Positions 7,384-13,207 of a DNA stretch of 64,000 nucleotides are shown in pieces. Within the stretch, counting starts at the first letter, position 1, and the number at the start of each line of letters is the position of its first letter. Made by a program: the position numbers and the translations under genes. The stretch is from Solitalea lacus (lineage in GTDB: Bacteria > Bacteroidota > Bacteroidia > Sphingobacteriales > Sphingobacteriaceae): positions 3,522,200-3,586,199 of the forward strand of contig NZ_CP091740.1 in the NCBI RefSeq assembly GCF_022014595.1. The letters run 5' to 3'. The notes under the pieces were generated by a model, which had not been told where the DNA came from, ran no database searches, and worked only from the letters and a program-made list of their open reading frames with translations.

Positions 7384-7455
7384 GGCCCATTCGTCTATCG
7401 GTTAGGACGCAAGATTTTCATTCTTGAAAGAGGGGTTCGACTCCCCTATGGGCTA
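7384..7455 (+). tRNA. tRNA-Glu (UUC), copy 1
   Basis: 72-nt cloverleaf. Acceptor arm GGCCCAT pairs with ATGGGCT, with G1-U72 as the only wobble. The anticodon stem CAAGA/TCTTG carries the loop TTTTCAT with anticodon UUC, and the T-arm is GGGGTTCGACTCCCC. The next three bases happen to be CCA, unlike the other copies. Confidence 0.97.
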
Positions 7456-7523
7456 CCAAAAATTGTATTTTAAACAAGCTTGCAGTAAGCAGTAGTTTAA
7501 AATTTTGAAATAAGACTTTAAAT

Positions 7524-7595
7524 GGCCCGTTCGTCTAGGGGTTAGGACGCAAGATTTTCATTCTTGAAACAGGGGTTCGATTCCCCTACGGGCTA
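7524..7595 (+). tRNA. tRNA-Glu (UUC), copy 2
   Basis: Same fold and anticodon as copy 1. The acceptor pair at position 6 is changed from A-U to G-C in both strands (GGCCCGT/ACGGGCT), a compensated change. The D-loop reads TAGGGG instead of TATCGG. No CCA is encoded. Confidence 0.97.
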
Positions 7596-7657
7596 CTAAG
7601 ATTCAATTAGAAGAATTGAATCCATTGATTTGAAACACTAAACAATGCCAATAACTT

Positions 7658-7729
7658 GGCCCATTCGTCTATCGGTTAGGACGCAAGATTTTCATTCTTG
7701 AAAGAGGGGTTCGATTCCCCTATGGGCTA
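7658..7729 (+). tRNA. tRNA-Glu (UUC), copy 3
   Basis: Identical to copy 1 except for one base in the T-loop (GGTTCGATTCC). No CCA is encoded. It lies 62 bp after copy 2. Confidence 0.97.
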
Positions 7730-7760
7730 CTAAAGTTAAAACAAACTTTTATAAACAATT

Positions 7761-7832
7761 GGCCCATTCGTCTATCGGTTAGGACGTAAGATTTTCATTC
7801 TTGAAAGAGGGGTTCGACTCCCCTATGGGCTA
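7761..7832 (+). tRNA. tRNA-Glu (UUC), copy 4
   Basis: Same as copy 1 except that the first anticodon-stem pair is U-G (GACGTAAGA) instead of C-G. It lies 31 bp after copy 3. A strong terminator follows at 7841. Confidence 0.97.
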
Positions 7833-7840
7833 CAACAACT

Positions 7841-7876
7841 AAGGCTGTCTCCAAAAGGGGCAGCCTTTTATTTTTT
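7841..7876 (+). terminator. Terminator of the tRNA-Glu cluster
   Basis: AAGGCTGTCTC pairs with GGGGCAGCCTT around a short CAAAA-type loop, then a T-rich tail. It begins 9 bp after the last tRNA. The arm AGGCTGTCTCC recurs in hairpins near 9514 and 20643. Confidence 0.85.
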
Positions 7877-8222
7877 ATGTCCCCCCGAATTTACAATCCA
7901 CAACTAATTACGGTGATCAACTTGATGAGTTGGATCGATACGTCAAACATTCACCAAAATAGTACAACATATTAAAATTTAACCTGATTAAATAGTTTTA
8001 TATCTTAATTATCTTCTGACTTTTTGCTTGCTCATCTGGTTGCTTGATAATCAGGTAAAGGATTTTGCGCCCAGATGATAATTATATTAGCAACTAAAGC
8101 AATAAATTTTGAACGCTTTAGCGACCATAGGAATAGGGTATAAAACATAAAACTTCTCCTGAGCGCTATGGAAAGCAGGGTATGATGTTTGCAAACCCCT
8201 GTTTTGTTCAATATATTTGATT
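7877..8222. other. Intergenic stretch, no supported gene
   Basis: 346 bp of AT-rich sequence between the tRNA terminator and the AbiEi-like locus. Short open frames exist on both strands near 8032-8235, but they overlap each other and show no recognisable motif, so none is called. Decayed sequence is possible. Confidence 0.4.
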
Positions 8223-8239
8223 GTTCATGAATCATGAAC
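8223..8239. promoter_or_regulatory. 17-bp palindrome before the AbiEi-like gene, probable operator
   Basis: GTTCATGAATCATGAAC is a perfect inverted repeat around its central base and ends 19 bp before the AbiEi-like start codon. A third half-site TTGAAC follows at 8251. A closely matching palindrome lies beyond the locus at 9445-9461. AbiEi proteins are known to bind inverted repeats and repress their own operon, so an operator role is likely but inferred. Confidence 0.6.
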
Positions 8240-8258
8240 CATTGTAAATTTTGAACAA

Positions 8259-9269
8259 ATGAAAGGTGGTGAAACTTTACAAACTGCTATCCGGAACTTC
8301 AATAGCATAACTGGAATAATGATTAAGGAAAATAAAGATAAAAAGGGTAATACTGTTGCAACGATCAACAACGGACTGAAGGCATGGACATTTGAGGTGT
8401 TGATTAAAAATGAAATCCGCGACATTCATTTGCCCTCTATTTTAGCAGAACTTGGAACTGCTGTTAAAGCTCGTTTATTAGTATGTCAATACATTCCTAA
8501 GCCAGTAAAAGAAAAACTGAAAAATCTCAACATTAATTACCTAGACGCAGCCGGGAACTGTTTCATTAAACAAGCTGAATTGTTTTTTTATATCACTGAT
8601 CAGGCTGTAACCCCTTTCCGGAAAATGGAACAAGGCAAAATATGGAAACAGGCTGGGGTGAAATTTCTTTTCGGAGTTCTTTTGTACCCTGAGTTATTAA
8701 ACAAGCCCTACCGTCAAATAGCGGAGTTAACTAATGTTTCGCTGGGTAACATCGGACCCTTTATAGAGGAATTAAAAGAAGAGGGATTTATTATCAACGG
8801 TAAAAACAATGGAAACGATTGGCTATATCTTGAGCACAAAGAACGTTTGCAAAAAAGATGGATAGAGGCTTATTGCACGACATTGCGGCCCAAATTATTA
8901 AAAGGGAACTTTCGCTTTTTGCGTAATGAAGACCGGAATAATTGGAAAAATCTGCCAATTGACCAGTTCTATTGGGGAGGCGAAGCTGCCGGTGCATTGT
9001 TCACTAATTATTTGCAACCAGAATTGTTCACTATTTACACCAAGCTGCCGGATACAACCATTATGCGAAACTTAAGATTGGTGCCGGATAAAGGTGGTGA
9101 AATTGAATTAGTAGAGCCCTTTTGGAACGATGCTTTACTCTTGCAATTAGGTATTCCTCCCACTATAGTTCCTCCCCTGCTGGCCTACACCGAACTCATT
9201 ACCAGTATAGATAGCCGAAATCAAGAAACTGCAGCACGAATTAAACAACAGTACCATGAGCAATTTTAA
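8259..9269 (+). CDS. AbiEi-family antitoxin/transcriptional regulator (type IV toxin-antitoxin)
   Basis: 336-residue soluble protein. The middle contains LKNLNINYLDAAGNCFIK, a motif typical of Bacteroidota AbiEi-like antitoxins. A winged-helix DNA-binding segment follows around residues 150-185 (PYRQIAELTNVSLGNIG). The C-terminal half resembles the AbiEi C-terminal region. In AbiE systems the antitoxin represses the operon and counteracts a nucleotidyltransferase toxin. Here the partner reading frame begins inside the last codons (ATG at 9256) but is mostly deleted, so the gene looks orphaned. The start is placed at 8259; other in-frame starts downstream are less likely given the operator spacing. 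Confidence 0.75.
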   Translation: MKGGETLQTAIRNFNSITGIMIKENKDKKGNTVATINNGLKAWTFEVLIKNEIRDIHLPSILAELGTAVKARLLVCQYIPKPVKEKLKNLNINYLDAAGNCFIKQAELFFYITDQAVTPFRKMEQGKIWKQAGVKFLFGVLLYPELLNKPYRQIAELTNVSLGNIGPFIEELKEEGFIINGKNNGNDWLYLEHKERLQKRWIEAYCTTLRPKLLKGNFRFLRNEDRNNWKNLPIDQFYWGGEAAGALFTNYLQPELFTIYTKLPDTTIMRNLRLVPDKGGEIELVEPFWNDALLLQLGIPPTIVPPLLAYTELITSIDSRNQETAARIKQQYHEQF

Positions 9270-9419
9270 CCCAGTACTTCATCCGGAGTTTGTACGCTCC
9301 GAAAGGTTAAAAAGATGCTCGACAATGATACATTGCTTATTGATCGCATATCGGCTGTTCTTCAAAAACGACCTTTAGAAACCTGGCAGGCACTATTAGA
9401 AGGGCTTAGGGATGCGTAG
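9256..9419 (+). pseudogene. Remnant of the AbiEii-like toxin partner (large internal deletion)
   Basis: An ATG overlapping the antitoxin stop by 14 bp opens a frame beginning MSNFNPVLHPEFVR. It ends after 40 codons at 9378. A different frame then carries a coherent tail (9315-9419) ending LLEGLRDA before TAG. The arrangement suggests the first ~15 and last ~34 codons of a longer translationally coupled gene joined by a deletion and frame change. The nucleotidyltransferase GS and D-x-D motifs expected for AbiEii are absent. The toxin identity is inferred from position. Confidence 0.5.
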
Positions 9420-11979: not shown

Positions 11980-12025
11980 TTTAGTTTTAGTTTATTATTT
12001 CGGATAAAATTGTCCTTTATTGCCT

Positions 12026-12073
12026 CAAATGTATGAACGGAAATAATAAAAGACAAAAATATCTTTTATTATT
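12026..12073 (-). promoter_or_regulatory. norZ promoter with overlapping palindromic operator
   Basis: On the minus strand a TACATTTG -7 box (12026-12033) lies 20 bp downstream of TTTG (12054-12057), a good Bacteroidota promoter about 50 bp before the norZ start. A perfect 12-bp inverted repeat, AATAATAAAAGA (12042-12053) and TCTTTTATTATT (12062-12073), spans the -33 element with an 8-nt spacer. The inner half-sites AAAGAYA resemble the AAGAT-type half-sites of NsrR/Rrf2 regulators. Regulator identity is inferred. Confidence 0.65.
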
Positions 12074-12090: not shown

Positions 12091-12118
12091 AAACGGCAGC
12101 AATTAATTGCTACCGTTT
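12091..12118 (-). terminator. Terminator of the lipoprotein gene
   Basis: AAACGGCAGCAAT pairs with ATTGCTACCGTTT with one mismatch and almost no loop beyond AATTAATT. On the minus strand a TTTTTG run follows. It lies 49 bp beyond the lipoprotein stop. Confidence 0.75.
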
Positions 12119-12166: not shown

Positions 12167-13207
12167 TTACTTCGTTTGAGTTAGAGGCACTACACGCAAT
12201 GTATCTGTTCTTTGCTCAATCAGTTTGATCATATCTCCTTCAATTCTAAATTTACCCACACCTGCAATTTCCCACCGATCAGCTTTACTCATGTCACAAT
12301 CAAAGTAGGTGTAGTTCACCAAAATCGAATCTCCATTGTACCTTAGATTAATAGAATCGAACTGGCGAAACCAATGAGTCCCATAAGAAACAAAATACCC
12401 GTTATTAATTTGCTTCAACAATTTGGGCTCCTTTCTGAACCAATAATTGAGAAAGCTCAATTGTTTGTTAGATCCCTGGTAACCAAAATCCAAAGCATCA
12501 ATTAACAGGTTTTTAATTCCTGAATAATTGGTATTGGGCTCACCGTCGGCAATTGCATAGTCAGCACCTGCCACTCTGCTGTAATAACCCAAAACGGCTC
12601 TTACCGGCTTAGGACAAGTATATACATATTCTGTATTTACTATAATGGTCATCAACGAGTCTCTCAACTGTGGTACGAAACGGTTTTGCAACCAAAGAAT
12701 TTGTTTAAACCCTTCATTAGTCACACCAGGATCCTTCACCCATTCCAGATCCTTATCCGGCTCTACCTGAGTAAAACTTTCTTTTAAACTTACTGAATCA
12801 ATCCGTTCGGTTTTGGGATCGATAAAACCTCCTTTCAATTCCCCATTCATCAAATCAGCATTCATCTCATGCTTCAACCCCTTTTCTAATAAGACTTTGG
12901 CTTTAAGATGTCCCTTTTCATCAATTTCACCTTCAATAGGAATTCGTTTGCCACTTTTTTTCACAACGGCAATTCCTTTTACTTTGCCCTCTTTAGCTGA
13001 AAGACTAACAAAAACTTCTTCTCGTTTATTGATTTTTCCCGAAAATGATTTTTTAAAGTTTAATTGTTTAGAACCGCTATAGGCAGAAACGTTTTTCTTT
13101 GGCTGTTCTTCTTTTTCATGAATAACAGCGTTAGATTTTTCATTTTTTAAACACGATGAGAGCGAAAAAATTAGAACAACGAGCAAAAATAACCGAGCGT
13201 TCTTCAT
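12167..13207 (-). CDS. Hypothetical lipoprotein
   Basis: 346 residues. The N-terminus is a lipoprotein signal with a lipobox (IFSLSSCLKN), so the mature protein probably begins at Cys19 and is anchored in a membrane. The next 120 residues contain a lysine-rich, beta-prone region. The C-terminal half is rich in aromatic residues (LNYWFRKEPKLLK, FVSYGTHWFRQ). I do not recognise the family. It has its own terminator and is separated by 174 bp, which hold nothing I can identify, from the fucosidase gene upstream. Confidence 0.8.
   Translation of the reverse strand: MKNARLFLLVVLIFSLSSCLKNEKSNAVIHEKEEQPKKNVSAYSGSKQLNFKKSFSGKINKREEVFVSLSAKEGKVKGIAVVKKSGKRIPIEGEIDEKGHLKAKVLLEKGLKHEMNADLMNGELKGGFIDPKTERIDSVSLKESFTQVEPDKDLEWVKDPGVTNEGFKQILWLQNRFVPQLRDSLMTIIVNTEYVYTCPKPVRAVLGYYSRVAGADYAIADGEPNTNYSGIKNLLIDALDFGYQGSNKQLSFLNYWFRKEPKLLKQINNGYFVSYGTHWFRQFDSINLRYNGDSILVNYTYFDCDMSKADRWEIAGVGKFRIEGDMIKLIEQRTDTLRVVPLTQTK

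Follow-up and report, generated by a model that had tools for sequence, protein, structure and literature searches.

A predicted pair of Rrf2-type operators at the nitric oxide reductase promoter of Solitalea lacus and its candidate regulator

Introduction

Which regulator reads the large palindrome over the promoter of norZ, the nitric oxide reductase gene of Solitalea lacus, and where is that regulator encoded? An earlier note on this DNA had likened the palindrome to NsrR/Rrf2 sites and had suggested repression relieved by NO. Bacteroidota account for a large share of the clade II N2O reductase present in soils and sediments. In the open-access PMC literature searched, no description of the control of this enzyme in Bacteroidota was found, nor was an Rrf2 NO regulon or motif for the phylum.

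NsrR has been described in proteobacteria and Gram-positives with the motif gATGyAT-N5-ATrCATc, and HcpR has been described for Bacteroides (Rodionov et al. 2005, PMC1274295). Elsewhere, nirK and ric-type genes are among the targets of NsrR (PMC1274295, PMC9268430), and a review of RIC regulation, in the portion used here, names NsrR outside Bacteroidota only (PMC9268430). Rrf2 genes occur in clade II nos scaffolds, including those of Bacteroidota, and their role was called difficult to predict (PMC6264515). Rrf2 is not named in the available part of a CRP/FNR study with a Flavobacteriales genome (PMC8510549). The cluster ligands of ScNsrR are three cysteines and Asp8, and those of IscR are three cysteines and His107; IscR senses Fe-S status and can also activate (PMC5411485).

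Sequences and site models

The window is the whole stretch of 64,000 nucleotides analysed here. Its genome (G000, 4.40 Mb in one contig) was compared with the genomes of three Solitalea congeners (G001, G002 and G003). A 28-bp position weight matrix (PWM) was trained on 41 regions around rrf2 genes, exclusively non-Solitalea, which hold 50 cores of the form GAY-N6-RTC against 3.4 expected. Because this core pattern was picked after inspection of the window, only the positions flanking it count as independent PWM evidence. Two further sequence-only models were used, R1 (29 sites, mainly from rrf2-norZ loci) and R2 (24 sites, mainly from ric, nos and rrf2 loci). No member sequence of either model is present in the Solitalea loci examined.

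Two predicted operators at norZ

Promoters of the Bacteroidota sigma-A type have a TTTG element at N19/20 spacing from TAnnTTTG. The norZ promoter, TTTG-N20-TACATTTG on the minus strand, fits this form, with a predicted start (TAnnTTTG box: PMC9723704). The TAnnTTTG box of F. psychrophilum stands at -12 to -5 (PMC9723704), and the same spacing would place +1 at 12021 and the palindrome centre at -36.5 (Table 1). The earlier note had described a perfect 12-bp inverted repeat overlapping this promoter, with half-sites AAAGAYA, and both parts of the description hold. The arms AATAATAAAAGA and TCTTTTATTATT (12042-12053 and 12062-12073) are 100% complementary across an 8-nt spacer, AAAGATA and AAAGACA are both present, and the repeat spans the -33 element. 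The G of the -7 box lies 31.5 bp from the palindrome centre.

Table 1. Features of the norZ region, in window coordinates.
Feature	Positions	Strand	Basis
norZ, quinol-type nitric oxide reductase, 773 aa	9658..11979	-	PF22085 + PF00115 (COX1)
Proximal operator (predicted), about +27 to -1, core GGACAATTTTATCC at 12002-12015	11995..12022	.	outside PWM 24.7; best R1 match in genome; equivalent in rrf2-norZ gap of G002, G003
Predicted transcription start (inferred)	12021	-	F. psychrophilum spacing, TAnnTTTG at -12 to -5 (PMC9723704)
-7 element TACATTTG, Bacteroidota TAnnTTTG box	12026..12033 (read 12033-12026)	-	sequence; TAnnTTTG at like distance in relatives
Distal operator (predicted), perfect 12-bp inverted repeat, centre -36.5 from predicted start	12042..12073	.	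sequence, PWM, R1/R2 scans
-33 element TTTG, at centre of distal operator	12054..12057 (read 12057-12054)	-	sequence; operator-to--7-box spacing in relatives
Intrinsic terminator of upstream gene	12091..12118 (read 12118-12091)	-	separates upstream gene from norZ promoter
Gene upstream of norZ promoter, lipoprotein-like by eye	12167-13207	-	own terminator at 3' end

Chance is an unlikely source of the palindrome. In the 64 kb it is one of four perfect repeats with an arm of at least 12 and a loop of at most 12, where eight Markov-1 versions average 0.125; with Markov-1 versions of just the 187-bp intergenic region, the chance of such a repeat is 0.003. If up to three mismatches are allowed, the full palindrome pattern has a single match in the window, and none of 100 shuffles contains it.

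The palindrome is thus real, and the earlier note had missed a second operator at norZ. The second dyad, GGACAATTTTATCC (12015-12002 on the minus strand), lies over the predicted transcription start, and the two operators are 49 bp apart. Over the 64-kb window the PWM scored 24.7 at this proximal site, 19.6 at the distal one (12044-12071) and 5.1 at the next best place; the maximum across 40 Markov-1 windows was 18.5. A recurring GGAYAA-N2-TTRTCC-like dyad is found in other Bacteroidota norZ upstream regions, and the loci that have it often also contain an Rrf2 gene. The first degenerate patterns tried gave no signal over a backward control (0 matches; then 21 in G000 versus 19 in the control). 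A convergent gene for an AbiEi_2 family protein (PF09952, window 8259-9269) adjoins norZ.

Sites at other denitrification genes of Solitalea

Over the 4.4 Mb of G000, R1 ranked the proximal norZ site first and the distal site second among distinct places. With R2 the distal palindrome came first (E 3.3e-5), followed by the nosD promoter (7.8e-5), the promoter of ric...rrf2-cytc-nosZ (0.026) and the proximal norZ site (0.055); the place after these four had 0.58. The sites at rrf2-norZ or norZ, at ric-nos and at nosD were found again in all four Solitalea genomes. In addition, nirK (TIGR02376) is present in G000 and G002, and was not found in G001 and G003. The site at nirK in G000, TTCGGACAGTTTTGTCCGA, scores 20.1 and its core ends 36 bp 5' of the likely start codon; no exact TAnnTTTG lies within 60 bp of it. 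The nirK gene of G002 has no site (score 7.8).

In G000 the denitrification genes nirK, norZ, ric-rrf2-nosZ and nosD thus carry one common predicted operator. Such a genome scan had been proposed in the earlier note for nos and hcp, among others. It led to the promoters of the nos genes, including the one that drives rrf2, and to nirK; hcp was not found in the four Solitalea genomes. Weaker R2 matches at G002 3380010 (0.049), G001 384602 (0.18) and G002 1879713 (0.16) have no adjoining gene of the reference set. Symmetric matches at G000 325774 and 571120 were rejected, lying within ORFs with scores below 9, and a site within the cytochrome c gene of the nos operon (G000 1671592) was set aside as an apparent coding coincidence.

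The candidate regulator

Two Rrf2 genes in G000 score over the Pfam cut-off; the nos operon contains the first, and the second is of a different type. The nos-operon gene lies at G000:C1:1671665-1672105, 1.86 Mb from norZ, and its product belongs to the Rrf2 superfamily (PF02082, 89.3 bits, cut-off 30; TIGR00738, 86.6 bits, cut-off 73.3). The proposal of a regulator not encoded next to norZ was therefore borne out. The sole close Rrf2 homologue found in G000 lies in the nos operon, and repression in trans is for this reason the best reading. The nos operon starts, in locus L139, with a DUF2249-ScdA_N-hemerythrin fusion (RIC, 7453-8718) and a DUF2249 protein (8735-9289); a COX1-like membrane protein below the Pfam cut-off precedes rrf2 (L139:9271-10269).

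Relatives of the nos-encoded protein at E 1e-20 or better were found in 82 of 247 genomes of the class. An alignment of 64 sequences of this subfamily was used, which includes two duplicate pairs and leaves out the non-Bacteroidota rows L050, L055 and L075 (without the second Cys) and the other-type Rrf2 of G000. All 64 have C92, C99, C105 and H108 (C-x6-C-x5-C-x2-H). Glu7 occupies the NsrR Asp8 position in 56, all with Arg or Lys four residues later, and Lys stands at that position in 6. An Fe-S cluster is likely, because the subfamily has candidates for both ScNsrR-type and IscR-type ligands.

The recognition helix SPxxFTAKILQ, with Thr, is present in 51 of the 64. The nos-encoded protein shares 41% identity with the nor-linked Rrf2 of the sister species, and the helices read SPEHFTAKILQ and SPEAFTAKVLQ, respectively. 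From this likeness of the helices and from the similar sites, we infer that the nos-encoded protein would recognise the norZ operators. The nor-linked copies of G002 and G003 (L145:6797-7279 and L146:3606-4037) have Lys at the NsrR Asp8 position, where the nos and ric paralogues keep Glu. Paralogues with Lys and with Glu may differ in cluster or signal.

Conservation and history of the norZ locus

The earlier note had also called for comparison with the norZ promoters of related species. G001, which has the least similar NorZ of the congeners (80%), has 31 of the 32 palindrome bases before norZ, and the flanks are identical at 18/60 and 19/60 positions without gaps; the refuting case named in that note, a repeat not conserved in related norZ promoters, was thus not found. 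No rrf2 adjoins norZ in G001, where the palindrome is kept, and no second operator was seen in the norZ region of that genome. G002 and G003 each have an rrf2-norZ operon with this same palindrome as its promoter and a second operator between rrf2 and norZ. The rrf2-norZ arrangement is also found in several Flavobacteriaceae, for example Aquimarina.

The distal half of the window promoter is identical to the rrf2 promoter of G002 and G003 in 45 of 48 columns, a stretch that includes the palindrome, and the proximal half aligns to the gap between rrf2 and norZ in the same two genomes. No rrf2 is found beside norZ in the window. The simplest account would be that rrf2 was lost in the window's species and both operators were retained. 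The neighbours of norZ in G000 are GAPDH-like and lipoprotein-like genes (by eye), and they differ in the three congeners, which indicates that a move also took place. G003 has three Rrf2 paralogues. One of them belongs to a ric-rrf2 operon with its own operator (L147:5947-7362) between GAPDH-like and lipoprotein-like genes; this operon fills the interval that holds norZ in the window, in the opposite orientation relative to the neighbours.

Association of the operator with Rrf2 genes in Bacteroidota

The 30 best-match Rrf2-anchored loci hold 29 sites scoring at least 9 against 1.2 expected, although some of these loci could come from genomes near the training species. The sites fall in 19 of the 30 loci and the other 11 have none with this score. 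Most of the sites precede ric, rrf2, norZ or cytc-nosZ; exceptions include L203 and L176. The latter is the G000 locus, with one site inside the cytochrome c gene and one just 5' of nosZ, and neither was taken as an operator. Of twenty further loci, which take in L228 (other Rrf2 type) and three Solitalea loci, ten have sites, 14 in all where 0.7 would be expected. No site was found at the other-type Rrf2 loci L125-L128, L140 and L228. The dyad with the core GAY-N6-RTC is enriched in Bacteroidota around one Rrf2 subfamily.

At E 1e-3, a class-wide R2 scan had matches in 11 of 119 genomes, at 16 distinct places, and eight of these places are training sites. Seven of the remaining eight have a gene of denitrification type or an Rrf2 gene next to them. 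Of these seven, two belong to G000 and two stand at rrf2 in G040; one precedes cytc-nosZ, and two lie in front of genes for a Cu-oxidase and cytochrome c that resemble nirK. One of the 16, in G038:C34 (L266:1501-1522), is a strong site at an unrelated ORF with no known NO link; this ORF has PKD and weak peptidase C25 matches.

Among 78 scored norZ loci, a site occurs in 23 of 31 with Rrf2 versus 3 of 47 without. Many of these loci had served to train the PWM, which makes the contrast partly circular, and no weight is placed on it here. The converse expectation, that a norZ without a site marks a genome without Rrf2, was wrong: in the further Rrf2 set, norZ lacks a site within 700 bp in 13 of 20 genomes, and 12 of these 13 have Rrf2. 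Thus, the regulator would not always control norZ. In an exploratory comparison (Fisher test, counts by hand), a site was present with Thr in the recognition helix in 18 of 20 cases and with another residue in 1 of 10; against this rule, the FIAK Rrf2 proteins of G002 and G003 likewise have sites.

TAnnTTTG with its G 20-40 bp from the operator centre was found in 44 of 202 site orientations (deduplicated, both directions) versus 2.6 expected; the 44 cannot be counted as independent, since some come from related species. Thirty-nine of the matches lie at 29.5-34.5 bp, where 0.125 is expected per distance. This distance is 31.5 in the window, 33.5 at ric-nos and 34.5 at nosD of G000, 30.5 at rrf2 of G002 and of G003, and 34.5 at ric of G002. 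At norZ of G001 there is no exact TAnnTTTG within 60 bp, only the inexact box TAATATTG. The predicted operator commonly sits on the -33 element, which argues for repression by occlusion.

Comparison with known regulators

The candidate regulator resembles NsrR of S. coelicolor and E. coli in its Rrf2 fold, its three cysteines and a dyad operator on promoters. It also shares sites at promoters of NO metabolism (here norZ, ric-nosZ, nosD and nirK). Where NsrR has Asp8 as fourth ligand and Arg12, 56 of the 64 have Glu and, four residues on, Arg or Lys, which would be a partial likeness. However, it differs from NsrR in sequence, candidate ligands and operator. The NCBIfam NsrR model (NF008240, cut-off 182) gave 39.9-50.0 bits, with 39.9 for the nos-encoded protein, and 23.6-24.1 for the nor-linked copies; none of the four Solitalea genomes has a protein over the cut-off. 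The operator is GAY-N6-RTC instead of gATGyAT-N5-ATrCATc. The spacing C-x6-C replaces the C-x5-C of ScNsrR (C93/C99, PMC5411485), and an extra His is present as in IscR. With IscR the candidate shares the ligand pattern C...C-x5-C-x2-H (His107 in E. coli), but TIGR02010 gave 47-56 bits (47 for the nos-encoded protein) against a cut-off of 207.55, and the neighbours and targets differ.

A canonical NsrR site at norZ was rejected, as the best match in the intergenic region has 6 mismatches in 14, and none of 11 window matches with up to three mismatches falls in that region. Of the NsrR/Rrf2 label in the earlier note, the Rrf2 part agrees with the enrichment at Rrf2 loci and the canonical NsrR motif had to be dropped. 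The predicted regulator is NsrR-like in role, and outside NsrR by the NCBIfam cut-off and the canonical motif.

The Rrf2 genes of clade II nos clusters are alike in their place within the cluster; the part of that study consulted gives no operator or targets for them, unlike here (PMC6264515). HcpR and other Crp-Fnr NO regulators of Bacteroidota are alike in NO-related regulation and belong to a different, FNR-like protein family (PMC1274295). Upstream of norZ in Flavobacterium sp. TAB 87 (L019), Flavobacterium sp. CF136 (L021) and Pedobacter ginsengisoli (L006), a TTTATGA-N6-TCATAAA-like dyad replaces the Rrf2 operator, and it looks like a Crp/Fnr site.

Proposed explanation and alternatives

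Judged from sequence, the palindrome is most probably (about 0.77) the distal of two operators of an NsrR-like Rrf2 repressor of denitrification genes, most likely the nos-encoded one, which would act in trans and be released by NO. A repressor dimer at the distal operator would cover the -33 element and a second dimer at the proximal operator the start site, and both would jointly keep norZ silent. NO, the presumed signal by analogy, would react with an Fe-S cluster of the regulator, as suggested by the three conserved cysteines and by NsrR, whose [4Fe-4S] cluster is destroyed by NO with loss of DNA binding. The repressor would then leave, and norZ would be transcribed along with nirK, ric-rrf2-nosZ and nosDFY, which have the same predicted operator. 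In the sister species an rrf2 gene lies between the two operators, ahead of norZ. In the window that gene is absent and norZ stands directly behind sequence aligning to the rrf2 promoter, where its site would be read from the distant nos operon.

The same operator and protein could instead answer to another signal (Fe-S status, O2, redox or nitrite), or the protein could also activate. This is unlikely, and has some backing in His108 at the fourth IscR ligand position, in Glu for Asp at the NsrR ligand position, and in what is known of IscR (PMC5411485). The targets, however, are nitrite, NO and N2O reductases together with the RIC repair protein, and a site over the -33 element fits repression. 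It is very improbable that the palindrome is the remnant of a lost rrf2 gene and is now bound by nothing. The absence of rrf2 beside norZ in the window and in G001 would fit such a remnant, but the repeat has kept 31 of 32 bases against G001 with flanks near random identity, and the same genome has like sites at nos promoters plus an Rrf2 gene.

We give as little credence to a different regulator on the palindrome, be it Crp/Fnr, HcpR, NorR or another dimer. Other systems do exist, as some Bacteroidota norZ promoters have TTATGA-N6-TCATAA-like dyads instead, and the NorR four-base half-site pattern GT-N7-AC is matched with one mismatch, which is uninformative. However, the dyad tracks Rrf2 genes, and in the norZ intergenic region the FNR, HcpR, CRP and TTATGA-type consensuses are 3-4 mismatches off versus 0 for RRGAYA-N4-TRTCYY (the TTATGA one was taken from other Bacteroidota norZ upstream regions); FNR, HcpR and CRP sites were rejected for this distance. 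That the repeat acts as a transcription terminator or RNA hairpin is scarcely credible. Its RNA would fold at -13.1 kcal/mol and symmetric positions outside the core covary, but a separate terminator closes the upstream gene, and the repeat precedes the predicted start, with an almost constant spacing to the -7 box across relatives. Nor does the GA/TC core vary, though the sites were partly selected on that core.

If the reading of an Rrf2 repressor acting in trans is right, the gain is an operator sequence, together with a candidate regulator and a set of targets in several lineages, and the control of NO and N2O reduction in Bacteroidota becomes testable with one protein and a few DNA fragments. 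The locus also suggests that an autoregulated repressor gene can disappear with its operators staying conserved. A broader proposal, whose chances of being right or wrong seem to us evenly balanced, is that a phylum-wide Rrf2 subfamily, apart from NsrR in sequence, ligands and operator, is the master NO-responsive denitrification repressor of Bacteroidota and couples nirK, norZ and nos via one -33 operator. Solitalea would then present regulator turnover under way, from G003 with three paralogues to the window's species with a single survivor on the operators of the lost one. Outside Bacteroidota, the Planctomycetota locus L075 holds norZ and an Rrf2 gene, with a site scoring 10.6.
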